A DNA stretch of 64,000 nucleotides. Source: Streptomyces sp. PCS3-D2 (GTDB lineage Bacteria > Actinomycetota > Actinomycetes > Streptomycetales > Streptomycetaceae). Below are positions 1 through 4,877 of the stretch, in pieces (within the stretch, counting starts at the first letter, position 1; each line of letters opens with the position of its first letter). The notes under the pieces were generated by a model, which worked only from the letters and a program-made list of their open reading frames with translations, made no database searches and was not told the DNA's origin. The translations under genes were made by a program, and so were the position numbers. The DNA is taken from assembly GCF_000612545.2 (NCBI RefSeq), contig NZ_CP097800.1, positions 6,044,501 through 6,108,500 of the forward strand. Reading direction: 5' to 3'.

Positions 1-744
1 CCGCGAATCCGGGAACGCCCTGCCGATCTCGGCGAAATCGCCGTCATCCAGTGCGACGTCCTCGTATGCGGTCCACTCCCCCTCCTGGCGGGACCCCTGA
101 TACCCCTCCGAAAGATTCACCTTCACCACACACTCGTACATGCGCAAGGGGGGCTTCGGAATTCGATACTCCGCGAGATGGAAAGCGGTGCAGACGGAAA
201 ACCCCACATTGATCATCAGTACCTGTCCGCCCTCCCAGCACAGCTTTCCCAGGGGTGACTCCTCACCCAGGTGGCTTTCCAGGCGGTGCCCGTCGCAGAG
301 CCGCTCCGCGTCCGCGCCGAGCGCGGCGAAAGAGGTCTGCGGGTGGGAGCTGCGTGCGGCGCCCGGTGCGGTGCGGACGGCCTCGGCGAGCGAGCCCATG
401 CCCTGGCTGGGGGTGCTCGCCGGGTCGAAGGCGGGCATCCGCTCGACGAAGGCCCGCACCTCGGCCTCGTCCATCCCGGCGATCCGCTCCAGGTGGGCGT
501 CGGAGGTTCGGGAATTCTGCGGGGTGAACGCGGGCACGACCAGGGTCCCGCGCGGGCCCAGGACGCCCGTCAGGGCGTCGCGCAGCTGCTCGGCGCGCAG
601 CCCGGTCCCGCGCAGCGAGGCGTGGACCAGGAGCTGCATCCCCGGCCGTACGCCGAGCAGCCGCAGCTGCACCGCGAGCTGGAGGGTGCCCGCGGCCCGG
701 CGGCCCCGCCCCGGTCCGGACGGGGCGGGGGAGTGGCCGCTCAT
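1..744 (-). CDS. AAC(3)-family N-acetyltransferase, partial at left edge
   Basis: The gene starts with ATG at 744, overlapping the fxsB stop by ATGA, and stays open for 248 codons to the window edge, so its C-terminus is missing. Translation shows the antibiotic N-acetyltransferase fold signatures: LLVHASL near residue 38, GTLVVPAFTP near 66, SSHPQTSFAALG near 133, and a GEESPLGKL then GGQVLMINVGF stretch near 160-180. The family transfers acetyl from acetyl-CoA to the 3-amino group of aminoglycosides, but many chromosomal members have other or unknown acceptors. Translational coupling to a RiPP maturase makes a peptide or cofactor-linked substrate as likely as resistance; that is inference. 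The family call is secure, the substrate is not known. Confidence 0.88.
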   Translation of the reverse strand, partial: MSGHSPAPSGPGRGRRAAGTLQLAVQLRLLGVRPGMQLLVHASLRGTGLRAEQLRDALTGVLGPRGTLVVPAFTPQNSRTSDAHLERIAGMDEAEVRAFVERMPAFDPASTPSQGMGSLAEAVRTAPGAARSSHPQTSFAALGADAERLCDGHRLESHLGEESPLGKLCWEGGQVLMINVGFSVCTAFHLAEYRIPKPPLRMYECVVKVNLSEGYQGSRQEGEWTAYEDVALDDGDFAEIGRAFPDSR

Positions 745-2993
745 GCGTCGACCGCCTTCAGCTCGTAGCGCAGCTCGGCCACCAGCTGTTTGCCGGTGAC
801 CGTCAGCTCGGCCGCGGCCGAGAGCCGGTCCAGGGCCTCGTGGATGAGGTCCGAGCCGCCCGGCTCGGGCCCCGCGGTGGCCCGCCGGTACGCCTCCACC
901 GCCACCCGCTCGTGCACGTCCGCCAGCAGCCGTGACACGGGTACCGGGCGCGACCGCCACGGCGACGGGTGCTGCCACTCCCCGTCCAGCGCGTACAGGT
1001 CGGTCACCTCGGTCAGGGCGCGCAGCCGGGTCCGCCGCCGTCCGGTCAGCAGCGCGAGCGCGGTCTCCCGTACGCCCGCCGCGTACGGCACCCCGAGCGC
1101 CCCCGGCCCGTGCCGGCCGGCCTCGCCCCAGCCGCCGGCCCGCGGGCCGCCCGCGAGCGGGGTGAGCGTGGTCAGCCCGACCGCCGCCGCCCGGGCGAAA
1201 CCGGGCACCGCCTTGTGCAGCAGCGCCCAGGCCCGGTCGAGCCGACCGCGCCACTCCTCGGTCTCGCCCGCGCCGAGCCGGAGCCGGGGCGGGCGGGGGA
1301 AGCAGTTGCGGTAGGGGTCGAGGTCCTCCAGCGCCACCGGCGCCGCGCCCGGGCCGGGAGACCAGGTGCGTACGGGCTGCCAGCGGGCGTCGCCCGCCGC
1401 CGGTCCGAAGCGGTGCTCGGAGCGGCCGTCCCGGGCGGCGTAGCCGTCGTCGGTGACGCGCAGGGAGGCCCGGCCCTCGGTGCCCGGCTCCCCGAGCCGC
1501 AGCAGGCCGAGCGTCGGCAGGTACACCTCGCCGTCCCGGTAGGCCACCTCGGCCGGCAGGTCCAGCCCGCCGCGCAGCACGGCCGCGGCGGCCAGCGCGG
1601 TGAGCCTGCGGGCCGCCTCCGCACCGCCGGGCCGGCCGTCGCGCGCGGCGTCCAGCGACGCTAGCACCCAGGTCCGGGTGTACGGGTGGTCCAGTACGGC
1701 GTCCAGCGCGTCGGCGCCCGTCTCCCCGGCCCGCTCCACGGCGGCCACGAGCTCCCAGGCGTGCGCCCATGCGGGGTCGCCGGCCAGGTCCGTGTTCAAC
1801 CGGGCCAGCAGGATCCGGGTCAGCTCCTCCTGGGAGCGGGTCAGTTCGGCCGGGTCGGACAGCTGCGGGGCGGTCTCCCGGTGCGCCGTGCGGCCCTCGA
1901 CCCCGTCGACCAGTTCGCGCAGGTCGGTGCAGTACACGGAGGGGTTGTCGAAGCCGTTGGGGTCGCGGTAGCGGTGGGTGTAGAGGCCGCCGCCGCACGA
2001 ACGTACGACGGGGCAGCCGCGGCACGACTCGCTGACGCCCGCCAGGCCCAGCTGCCGGGCGCGGACCCCGGGATGGGCCGCGACCTGGTCGAGAGCGTGG
2101 TCGAAGACGTTGAACCCGGTGGCCGCGGCCCCCTCGAAGGCGCTCTTGAGGGAGTCCACCTGTTCCAGGGTGCCGTCGGTCTCGACGACGACGAGGTCGG
2201 TGGGGGCGAGGCCGAGCGACTCGGTGAGGCTGGGTCCGCCGCGCAGCGTGGACAGGAGGGACTCGAAGAGGCGGACGGGGACCGGGCGGCCCAGCCGCTC
2301 CCAGTGGTCGAAGACCCGCAGGAGCCAGCGGGCGTAGGCGTCCGGGGCGTCGTCGGGCCGGGCGGGCGGCGTTTCCCAGGTGGCGTGCGGGAGGAGGAAG
2401 TCCACGCGTGGGGGTTCGAGTTCGACCAGCGCGTCGAGCACGGCGACGGGGTCGTTGGCCACGTCCACGGTGCAGAGCAGGCCTTGGTAGAGGTGGCGGT
2501 AGGGCGCGGAGCGCAGCAGACCCACGGCCGCGAGGACCAGCGGATGGCTCGTCCGGCCGTCCGCGAAGCGGCGGTGGCGGTCGTTGGCGGCGCGGTCGCC
2601 GTCGAGGGAGACTCCGACCCGGACGCCGTACTCGGCGAAGAGGTCGAGGTATCGGGTGCTGAGCTGGAGCCCGTTGGTGTGGATGCGCAGGTCGAGTGCG
2701 GCGATCCCGGTGAGCGCCCGGCTGAACTCCTCGCAGACGAGTCGGAGCCGGGCCGTGCCCGCCAACAGGGGTTCCCCTCCGTGGAGAATCACCGTGACGG
2801 AGGGGAGAGCATGGTCACGGGCATGTTCGGCGAGCCTCGACGCGGTCTGTGAAACAACCTCCGGCGAGATCACTTTCGGCCGGGCTCGCCAGCTCTGATC
2901 TGCGTGTTCGTAGACATAGCAATGATCACAAGCAAGATCGCATCTGCTGTGAACTTTCAGGACGATCTCGCGAAATGCGATCAGGCCGGTCAT
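741..2993 (-). CDS. fxsB: FxsB-type radical SAM/SPASM cyclophane-forming peptide maturase with degenerate HExxH-like C-terminal domain
   Basis: This 750-residue enzyme should cleave S-adenosylmethionine at a [4Fe-4S] cluster and crosslink the FxsA C-terminus. The radical SAM motif is C18, C22, C25 (CDLACDHC), followed by the HGGEPL loop near residue 71. A SPASM region with auxiliary-cluster cysteines lies around 320-355 (SCRGCP, RSCGGG, YCTDL). The last third (about 560-750) resembles the fused peptide beta-hydroxylase domain of FxsBH proteins, but where HExxH is expected the sequence reads TGRRR, so this domain is probably catalytically dead and may serve as a scaffold or substrate binder. 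Start ATG at 2993 has a weak ribosome site and lies 28 nt after the fxsA stop, consistent with one transcript. Confidence 0.92.
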   Translation of the reverse strand: MTGLIAFREIVLKVHSRCDLACDHCYVYEHADQSWRARPKVISPEVVSQTASRLAEHARDHALPSVTVILHGGEPLLAGTARLRLVCEEFSRALTGIAALDLRIHTNGLQLSTRYLDLFAEYGVRVGVSLDGDRAANDRHRRFADGRTSHPLVLAAVGLLRSAPYRHLYQGLLCTVDVANDPVAVLDALVELEPPRVDFLLPHATWETPPARPDDAPDAYARWLLRVFDHWERLGRPVPVRLFESLLSTLRGGPSLTESLGLAPTDLVVVETDGTLEQVDSLKSAFEGAAATGFNVFDHALDQVAAHPGVRARQLGLAGVSESCRGCPVVRSCGGGLYTHRYRDPNGFDNPSVYCTDLRELVDGVEGRTAHRETAPQLSDPAELTRSQEELTRILLARLNTDLAGDPAWAHAWELVAAVERAGETGADALDAVLDHPYTRTWVLASLDAARDGRPGGAEAARRLTALAAAAVLRGGLDLPAEVAYRDGEVYLPTLGLLRLGEPGTEGRASLRVTDDGYAARDGRSEHRFGPAAGDARWQPVRTWSPGPGAAPVALEDLDPYRNCFPRPPRLRLGAGETEEWRGRLDRAWALLHKAVPGFARAAAVGLTTLTPLAGGPRAGGWGEAGRHGPGALGVPYAAGVRETALALLTGRRRTRLRALTEVTDLYALDGEWQHPSPWRSRPVPVSRLLADVHERVAVEAYRRATAGPEPGGSDLIHEALDRLSAAAELTVTGKQLVAELRYELKAVDA

Positions 2994-3021
2994 TTGGCCA
3001 GTCTAGAGCTCTCGCTCCGCC

Positions 3022-3186
3022 TCAGAGTGCGGAGTTGAAGATCGGTGCCTGAACCGGACGGCCGGATTCTGCCGGGAGCACGCGATCGAGCGTCGCGACC
3101 GCGGACGCGGTTTCGATGTCGATCTTGGCGAGCGGGACCCGGCGGGCCTTGACCGTGCTGGTCGGGGGGGTTGCGGAAGTGTTCAC
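3022..3186 (-). CDS. fxsA: FxSxx-COOH RiPP precursor peptide
   Basis: This 54-residue peptide ends in F-N-S-A-L, the terminal FxSxx signature of peptides matured by FxsB; the expected product is a three-residue cyclophane joining the Phe ring to the Ser beta carbon (family knowledge). The leader contains ARRVPLAKID and TLDRVLP, typical of the family. The frame opens further upstream to 3297, but the GTG at 3186 is preferred: GAGGA sits 7 nt before it, the in-frame ATG at 3222 has no ribosome site, and the longer reading would include the conserved promoter block at 3250-3335. The maturase follows 28 nt downstream. The mature product and its activity are unknown. Confidence 0.85.
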   Translation of the reverse strand: MNTSATPPTSTVKARRVPLAKIDIETASAVATLDRVLPAESGRPVQAPIFNSAL

Positions 3187-3249: not shown

Positions 3250-3335
3250 GTCAAGCGTGGACTTTACTAGGCCACACCCCATTGGCAACCGAGACATGAC
3301 GCCTGGTCAACCGTTCTATAGCGAGTGAGGCGTAT
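3250..3335 (-). promoter_or_regulatory. Promoter/operator block upstream of fxsA (copy A)
   Basis: Reading on the minus strand, this block carries CGGTTGACCA, then CATG, GGTTGCCAATGG, GTGTGGCC and finally AAAGTCC about 70 nt before the fxsA GTG. The same order of elements occurs in copy B (3857-3935). In the best 33-nt stretch 25 positions match, and an identical TCAACCGTTC follows on the plus strand after a one-base indel. The TTGxxA-like and CTxxTAAAGT-like elements could be a -35/-10 pair or regulator half sites; no regulator gene lies beside them. Confidence 0.6.
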
Positions 3336-3479: not shown

Positions 3480-3797
3480 TCAGGAGGCGGTCGAAGTCCT
3501 GGCCGGCCCGGAGGCGGTGGTCACCGGCCCCGACGCGGGGTCAGGAGCCGCCGCGATGCCCGTCGAGGCCGCGGAGACCGCCCGGCCCGAGGGCCGGGGT
3601 TCGGCTGCGGCCGGCTGCCTGCCGTCGCCGCCGAACAGCAGAATGAGGACCGTGACGACCGCGGTGCCGGCGCCGATCGCGCCCACGAGGTCGCCCTTGG
3701 GTGCGGTGCCGGACCGCGAATGCTTGTGGACGGCGTACCCGACGAGGAGTCCGGCGCCGAGTACCGCCATGCCGATGTCGTCGATGTGCAGGATCAT
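3480..3797 (-). CDS. Small membrane protein of unknown function
   Basis: I do not recognise this 105-residue protein. It has two likely membrane segments, one near residues 8-24 (IGMAVLGAGLLVGYAVH) and one near 37-58 (LVGAIGAGTAVVTVLILLFG), separated by a short basic loop, then an alanine/proline/serine-rich tail of about 45 residues that looks disordered. ATG at 3797 is preceded by GGAAGG 8 nt upstream. Its upstream DNA is a near copy of the fxsA promoter block and both genes point the same way, so they are probably co-regulated. A role in export of, or immunity to, the FxsA product is a guess from context only. Confidence 0.6.
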   Translation of the reverse strand: MILHIDDIGMAVLGAGLLVGYAVHKHSRSGTAPKGDLVGAIGAGTAVVTVLILLFGGDGRQPAAAEPRPSGRAVSAASTGIAAAPDPASGPVTTASGPARTSTAS

Positions 3798-3974: not shown

Positions 3975-4877
3975 TCAGGCGGGCTGCTGTTCGCTCAGCT
4001 CCGGTGCGGGGAGGTCGCGCAGCAGCCAGTTGAGCACGTCGGGCAGTGCGCGCAGGGCCGCGAAGTGGGCGGCGGTCGGCTCGATCGTGGCGGTGGCCCC
4101 GGGGATCCGGCGCGCCAGCCAGCGGGAGTGACCCACGGGGGAGAACACGTCGAGCTCCCCGTGCCAGATCAGTACCGGACAGCGGATGTCGGCCGGGTCG
4201 AAGCCCCAGGACCGGCTGGAGGCGAGGACGTCGTCGATCCAGCCGTACGCCGAACGGCGCAGCCCCTCACGGTAGTTCCGCAGCAGCATCGACCGCAGCC
4301 CGGCGTCCGAGACGATCATGCGATCGTTGGCGGTCAGTTCCCGGCGCAGTTCGTCCAGCAGCCGCCCCGGGTCCTTGCGGATGCCGGCGGCGCGCGGGAT
4401 CAGCCGGGCGGCCAGTTCCTCGGGGTCGGCGAAGGCGGTGGTGTACTCCTTGACGTTCGACGCCGCCATCCCGGCGAACCAGTCCAGGTCCTCCGCGTCC
4501 CGGGGAGCCAGCCCGACCATGGCCGCGGTGCGGGTGACCCGCTCCGGCAGCAGGGCGGCGCAGGCGAGGGCGCCGGCGGCGCCCCCGGAGCGGCCCGCCA
4601 CGGCGAACCTGTCCAGACCGAAGGCGTCGGCCACGGCGGCCACGTCGTGGGCCACGTCGGCGACGGTGCGGCCCGGATGACGGTCGGAGCCGCCGTAGCC
4701 CGGTCTGTCATAGGCGATGAGCTGCATCCGGCGCTGGTAGAGGACCATGCCCCGGGGGGCCGGTCCCAGGCGGCTGCCGGGCATGCCGTGGAGCAGGAAG
4801 ACGGGTCTGCCGTCCGGATCGCCCCAGCGCTCCACGGTCAGAGCGCGCCCGTCCGCTGTGCGCACCTGATCGCGCAC
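3975..4877 (-). CDS. Alpha/beta hydrolase
   Basis: A 300-residue serine hydrolase of the alpha/beta fold, probably cytoplasmic because no signal peptide is visible. It shows the oxyanion loop LLHGMPG near residue 28, a nucleophile elbow GRSGG near 95, an acidic residue in WHGELDVFSP near 237, and a late histidine in TAAHF near 272. The closing PAPELSEQQPA is a non-conserved tail. It resembles the proline-iminopeptidase/epoxide-hydrolase-like hydrolases common in Streptomyces, but the substrate cannot be told. It sits behind the small membrane gene in the same direction with a 177-nt gap holding promoter copy B, so it is probably transcribed separately. Confidence 0.85.
   Translation of the reverse strand: MRDQVRTADGRALTVERWGDPDGRPVFLLHGMPGSRLGPAPRGMVLYQRRMQLIAYDRPGYGGSDRHPGRTVADVAHDVAAVADAFGLDRFAVAGRSGGAAGALACAALLPERVTRTAAMVGLAPRDAEDLDWFAGMAASNVKEYTTAFADPEELAARLIPRAAGIRKDPGRLLDELRRELTANDRMIVSDAGLRSMLLRNYREGLRRSAYGWIDDVLASSRSWGFDPADIRCPVLIWHGELDVFSPVGHSRWLARRIPGATATIEPTAAHFAALRALPDVLNWLLRDLPAPELSEQQPA

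Follow-up and report, generated by a model that had tools for sequence, protein, structure and literature searches.

The first 3.2 kb of the window, by which we mean the whole 64,000-nucleotide stretch analyzed here (positions 6,044,501 to 6,108,500 of contig NZ_CP097800.1, from the 7.6 Mb genome of Streptomyces sp. PCS3-D2), carry on the minus strand the gene of a short precursor peptide (fxsA), the gene of its radical SAM/SPASM maturase (fxsB), and a gene for an acetyltransferase of the aminoglycoside 3-N-acetyltransferase type (AAC(3); hereafter AAC), in this order and with the last one crossing the start of the window. An earlier note on this DNA had described a precursor ending in FNSAL, an FxsB maturase, an AAC(3)-family gene and an ATGA joint, and all of these are present. 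The features, all on the minus strand, are as follows:

1..744, minus: AAC(3)-type (Antibiotic_NAT) acetyltransferase gene (PF02522), with its 3′ end 99 bases past the window
741..744, minus: ATGA shared by the fxsB stop and the AAC start (sequence)
741..2993, minus: fxsB, encoding a 750-aa radical SAM/SPASM maturase whose C-terminal HExxH domain is dead (TIGR04269, NF040587, PDB 9gm3)
1896..2975, minus: radical SAM/SPASM domain, residues 7-366 (profile match)
759..1874, minus: dead HExxH domain, a former alpha-ketoglutarate beta-hydroxylase, residues 374-745 (NF040587; PDB 22nu)
1032..1046, minus: TGRRR replacing HEFQH, from residue 650 (alignments to relatives and PDB 22nu)
3022..3186, minus: fxsA precursor, 54 aa, GTG start, C-terminus APIFNSAL (sequence and conservation in relatives)
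3025..3039, minus: F-N-S-A-L codons with the predicted Phe-x-Ser crosslink (sequence; same ending upstream of the fxsB of relatives)

The gap between fxsA and fxsB is 28 bases and fxsB and the AAC gene overlap by 4 bases, and this spacing supports a single transcript for the three genes. The stop codon of fxsA lies at 3024-3022, and its GTG start, at 3186, is favored over an ATG at 3297 that would open a longer reading frame, because conservation in relatives begins at about VNTSAT. The longer frame scored 26.5 bits against TIGR04268, just below the cut-off of 28, so the identity of FxsA rests on its motif, position and conservation. FxsA in relatives was called by the F-x-S ending itself, and the constancy of the FxS serine in our counts is therefore partly by construction.

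FxsB and its dead domain are of known kinds. The protein passed TIGR04269 (580.8 bits, cut-off 370) and its C-terminus passed NF040587 with the HExxH motif lost (421.5 bits, cut-off 225). Its first half matches ChlB (PDB 9gm3, E 1e-75) and its second half PDB 22nu, an entry named “radical SAM core domain-containing protein” (E 4e-25). In the alignment with the solved domain of 22nu, TGRRR stands opposite HEFQH, so that both histidines (by T and R) and the glutamate (by G) are replaced. Together with NF040587 this bears out the earlier reading of an HExxH-type domain with TGRRR in place of its motif. TGRRR is no oddity, since NCBIfam already names NF040587 “FxsBH, inactivated beta-hydroxylase extension form”, i.e., the dead form is an already known variant. 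The closest named FxsB relatives are those of Streptomyces amritsarensis (96% identity) and S. virginiae (95%). The genome of the window contains two more FxsB genes (G000:C1:4418958-4420034 and G000:C1:2560607-2561701), and the AAC of the window is its sole match to PF02522.

The complete AAC (L006:10744-9902, 280 aa) scored 230.3 bits against PF02522 over residues 39-276 (cut-off 25), and its catalytic motif TAFHLAE, of the TxPhiHPhiAE/TxFHxAE type, is intact. Membership in the Antibiotic_NAT fold with an intact catalytic motif would also be expected of an aminoglycoside resistance gene that came to lie in the operon by chance. Against the AAC_3 equivalog NF033082, however, the protein reached 147.9 bits, below the cut-off of 270, and its nearest solved relatives are FrbF, YokD and BA2930 (best FrbF, PDB 3sma, E 3.8e-42), three proteins described as being without aminoglycoside activity in the relevant sections of PMC8956665. 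Among 69 aligned AACs linked to fxsB, the catalytic His is kept in 68 and the Glu in 61. In L082, L085, L087, L090 and L093, AACs linked to an FxsB with intact HExxH have Asp in place of this Glu (HLAD).

Our survey of 297 genomes of the host's family found NF040587 above its cut-off in 45, and in 24 of these 45 an AAC lies downstream on the same strand, at most about 0.8 kb past the matched domain, with 21 having none there (NF040587 and PF02522 places were paired by hand). In a draw of 150 genomes, 69 of the 79 FxsB places of at least 525 bits among the matches listed have an AAC within 4.5 kb downstream; these places are mostly fused to the C-terminal domain, as judged by open-frame length, and part of the AAC matches used E 1e-25. 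Most of the other 10 high-scoring FxsB come from genomes with an AAC placed differently. G136, G024, G076 and G144 have an AAC with the sequence motif described below elsewhere in the genome, G003 has one at the far end of the cluster, after fxsT (L217) and not within 4.5 kb, and in G050, G019 and G086 the AAC adjoins another fxsB. An AAC match was also found for 14 of the other 71 listed FxsB, below 525 bits, of which 61 sat in genomes searched with PF02522. These 14 comprise several cases of a second fxsB close to a fused one, the four of L205-L207 and G074, and three (L202-L204) in which a standalone fxsB lies directly beside an AAC.

This conserved linkage rules out that the AAC is a chance neighbor, and the AAC is a regular component of FxSxx loci, not the “unexpected third partner” of the earlier note, which had declared beforehand that its proposal would fall if AAC(3) genes were not linked to fxsB in related genomes; the linkage is widespread in them. 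In the open-access literature searched, we found no report of it, and PMC7159879 was the only relevant paper that turned up for FxsA, FxsB or FxsT. Across 141 aligned loci, HExxH is intact in one clade only and degenerate in all others, and on a tree built from 116 dereplicated FxsB, two changes account for the HExxH state and three for the AAC state (4 rows in which no fxsC was found were left uncounted for AAC state); all 49 tree rows without a neighboring AAC are also without HExxH. A role of the AAC as a partner of the HExxH domain is ruled out, as it occurs with intact, dead and unfused HExxH.

Linked AACs share a motif, TxxNSxTS, which we derived from columns kept in at least 95% of them and which reads TPQNSRTS in the window. 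Counting near-copies, 72 of 75 linked loci have it. The other three are L072 and L075, which differ from it at one position, and L172, where the linked AAC (L172:12193-12925) seems to be broken, with stops and two reading frames. Neither three resistance enzymes nor ten other unlinked AACs of Streptomycetaceae have the motif, and it is also missing from the aligned stretch of FrbF. A variable, substrate-binding region has been described for the Antibiotic_NAT family (sections of PMC8956665 on this family), and by its position the TxxNSxTS stretch should fall within it.

All 21 genomes with a dead-HExxH fxsB and no neighboring AAC contain a motif AAC elsewhere (9 + 6 + 6), as do all of seven further such genomes reached through their loci, among them those of L123 and L124, which represent separate changes on the FxsB tree. 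When both genes are on one contig, fxsB and the unlinked motif AAC are about 0.47-0.69 Mb apart in nine genomes, while in G076 the distance is 5.4 Mb. These distances leave out G272, which has a degenerate fxs locus with a truncated FxsT and no FxsC found, and in which both motif AACs adjoin other fxsB genes. Among 31 genomes without fused-type fxsB, the motif was found in none, though 10 have another AAC; for FxsB, 25 of the 31 gave no match at 1e-60, five a lower-scoring match (above the cut-off, at most 460.5 bits) and one a partial match. Of 396 actinobacterial genomes drawn evenly, 24 contain an AAC (E 1e-25) and five the motif, and these five are the same five that have an FxsB above 560 bits; six others with a lower-scoring FxsB have no motif. 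Motif AACs were also collected as stretches (L222-L233, L235, L236) from genomes in which the dead-HExxH fxs operon is without an AAC, and no fxsB was found nearby in the annotated stretches of L222, L223, L225 and L228.

On a tree of AACs with AAC(3)-VIa and -IIe as the outgroup, a branch with 85% support unites the fxsB-associated AACs and those present elsewhere in the genome, leaving L205, L207 and the minor L244 outside. The AACs found elsewhere group (93%) with L185, the fxsB-adjacent AAC of L234. Simple loss of the AAC in the clade of S. griseus/anulatus type is ruled out, as an AAC with the same motif is present elsewhere; since the tree places these AACs in a sister lineage with L185, we describe them as present elsewhere only and not as moved out of the operon. 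The resistance enzymes AAC(3)-VIa, -IIe and -IVa branch apart from the fxsB-linked group, and given this, the equivalog score and the tie to fxsB across genomes, we regard an aminoglycoside resistance gene that is in the operon by chance as very improbable.

The locus itself is longer than the window suggests. Downstream of the AAC, on the same strand and outside the window (L006), lie fxsC, fxsT and a SLATT gene, so that of the earlier proposal of a three-gene transcription unit the gene order and the ATGA joint stand, but the unit runs on past its third gene. FxsC (471 aa) scored above cut-off with NF040588 (236.8 bits) and TIGR04276 (209.8 bits); FxsT (1333 aa) scored 1055.1 bits with NF040586 and has KGGVGR-type ATPase, TIR, NB-ARC and TPR matches; and the protein after FxsT (302 aa) is of the SLATT_3/SLATT_1 type. 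Using PADLOC on six proteins, we obtained matches only for the ATPase part of FxsT (PDC-M28B, 3.5e-23) and for FxsB (pVip, 2.1e-8). The locus is a standalone FxSxx peptide-processing system. Upstream of fxsA are a small predicted open reading frame (3480-3797, minus) and an alpha/beta hydrolase gene (3975-4877, minus).

With this module adjoining the AAC in most loci examined, the AAC might act on a small molecule or another protein within the FxsC/FxsT/SLATT conflict module and not on the peptide. Two sets of loci argue against such a substrate, which we consider rather unlikely. In L213, L215, L216 and L221, fxsB occurs with FxsC- and FxsT-like genes and no AAC. Conversely, five operons (L201-L204, L234) keep fxsB and the AAC and have no fxsC, fxsT or fused HExxH in the stretches examined, which also disfavors the AAC as a partner of FxsC/FxsT only. 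Four of these five encode multi-core precursors:

L201:4127-4471: multi-core FxsA
L202:10989-11459, minus: multi-core FxsA
L203:9764-10240, minus: multi-core FxsA
L204:5146-5535: multi-core FxsA

These precursors contain 3 to 7 tandem FNSY or FSSY/FSSH units, and neither FxsC nor FxsT was found within the 10-18 kb stretches examined. L201 comes from a plasmid of Streptomycetaceae bacterium NBC_01309, and its fxsB and AAC genes overlap by 4 bases; the linear record ends 3 kb away from it, which limits what the absence of neighbors means there. In the fifth operon, L234, a single-core FxsA ends in FSSCI, the FxsB groups with the fused type, and of the called genes only fxsB and the AAC matched the FxSxx system. 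The FxsB of the four multi-core operons form a 100% clade, and five AACs of these operons form a clade with 98% support in one tree and 87% in another. A separate HExxH-domain match (107 bits) about 4 kb upstream in L204 (L204:2-940), clipped at the edge of the stretch, is likewise a limit on what is absent there. In L203, a second AAC of the same group lies upstream of the fxsB-AAC pair (L203:12719-11964). Because five operons keep the AAC without fxsC or fxsT in the stretches examined, the AAC follows the peptide and its maturase, not the conflict module.

We take IPR026335 to be the FxsB family. The triceptide maturase MscB, which is listed there, crosslinks residues i and i+2 by a bond from Phe C4 to Ser C-beta (PMC11002830), and by this precedent FxsB would make the same bond within the C-terminal FNS of FxsA, which should then form a cyclophane of three residues whose serine keeps its beta-hydroxyl free. 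As its metal motif is lost, the HExxH domain should no longer hydroxylate and probably has a binding or folding role. The AAC would use acetyl-CoA, through its His/Glu pair, to acetylate the FxsA-derived peptide. The first candidate acceptor is the amine exposed at the N-terminus when the leader is removed, and the second is the crosslinked serine, at its beta-hydroxyl. Once finished, the peptide probably takes part in a conflict or signaling system together with FxsC and FxsT, a STAND/TPR protein.

Based on the conserved linkage, the minimal operons and the distribution of the motif, we therefore read the AAC as a dedicated partner of the peptide and maturase, not as an aminoglycoside resistance enzyme: it is probably the partner of FxsA/FxsB, most likely acetylating the FxsA-derived peptide. 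That the AAC serves the peptide, as the earlier note had suggested, gains support from the fxsA-fxsB-AAC operons without fxsC/fxsT; the acetylation step itself is a prediction. The FxS serine and the freed N-terminus are candidate acceptors. A lysine side chain is not a general acceptor, because only 2 of 62 AAC-linked FxsA have a Lys within their last 8 residues and 13 of 62 within their last 12, and the multi-core repeats read contain none. Acetylation of a core Lys as the general function is thus disfavored, and may occur in some FxsA.

Both the chemistry of acetylation and its role, tailoring or self-immunity, are inferred. If the role were self-immunity, the AAC would acetylate the mature peptide and so silence it in the producer, i.e., the same substrate with the opposite role. 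MccE acetylates microcin C in this way. Detoxification is a known role of the AAC family, and immunity may be conferred from another place in the genome, which matches the AACs away from the operon. The FxSxx peptide has been proposed to be a toxin or signal (PMC7159879). The peptide has no known toxicity, however, and the overlap with the maturase gene (ATGA in the window, 4 bases in L201) fits tailoring at least equally well, and so we think self-immunity unlikely, if less so than a substrate in the conflict module.

Several observations weigh against a dedicated peptide acetyltransferase. FxsA shows no single conserved amine, no residue of its core clearly tracks with the presence of the AAC, and no leader peptidase was identified; Lys within the last 12 residues is more frequent in AAC-linked FxsA than in those without a neighboring AAC (13 of 62 vs 1 of 49). 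The catalytic Glu is replaced by Asp in 7 of the 69 aligned linked AACs and by Gln in one. The branch uniting the AACs has just 85% support, with the linked L205 and L207 outside it. Despite its high-scoring fxsB, G037 shows no AAC at E 1e-15, the AACs of G083 are all without the TxxNSxTS motif, several other fxsB types have no AAC in the flanking stretches examined, and one large clade has its AAC alone elsewhere in the genome. The loci also share ancestry, so that our counts are not counts of independent events.

Comparison with known systems places the locus among FxSxx-COOH systems (TIGR04268/TIGR04269; PMC7159879), in which, as here, FxsB, FxsC and FxsT pass their model cut-offs; the FxsA of the window has the FxSxx end but falls just short on TIGR04268. 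Kaur et al. 2020 (PMC7159879) described a standalone FxSxx system with a STAND protein, and their main text names no AAC(3), whereas here the AAC is regular and HExxH is dead. Similarly, no AAC partner is named in the available text on MscB (PMC11002830). Enzymes of the ChlB (PDB 9gm3)/22nu type (cf. PMC12636437) share the two-domain layout of FxsB but, unlike it, have not lost their HExxH ligands to TGRRR. FrbF is a phosphonate N-acetyltransferase that acts in phosphonate biosynthesis (PMC8956665). The pfl cluster of ribosomally synthesized and post-translationally modified peptides (RiPPs) contains an acetyltransferase, PflB, in an HExxH setting without a conserved Lys, as in the window, and its authors favor N-terminal acylation following leader removal (PMC12636437); PflB has a GNAT fold, however, not Antibiotic_NAT, and the pfl precursor and enzymes differ from those of the window.

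As far as our literature searches go, a dedicated AAC subfamily and three-gene multi-core operons are undescribed. We see an about even chance that the TxxNSxTS subfamily is a dedicated FxS-cyclophane acetyltransferase, for single- and multi-core precursors alike and possibly acting at the benzylic hydroxyl of the crosslinked serine. Such a subfamily would, at the same balanced odds, be a peptide-tailoring or -immunity class derived from the “aminoglycoside resistance” fold. The tandem precursors are attractive substrates, and the proposed acetylation could be tested in the three-gene operons as a minimal system. The annotation “AAC(3) family N-acetyltransferase” next to fxsB probably does not denote a resistance gene, and a single motif to recognize the subfamily would correct such annotations as well as counts of the resistome. 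Should the peptide prove to be the substrate, an unexplored modification would be added to an actinobacterial RiPP/conflict system.

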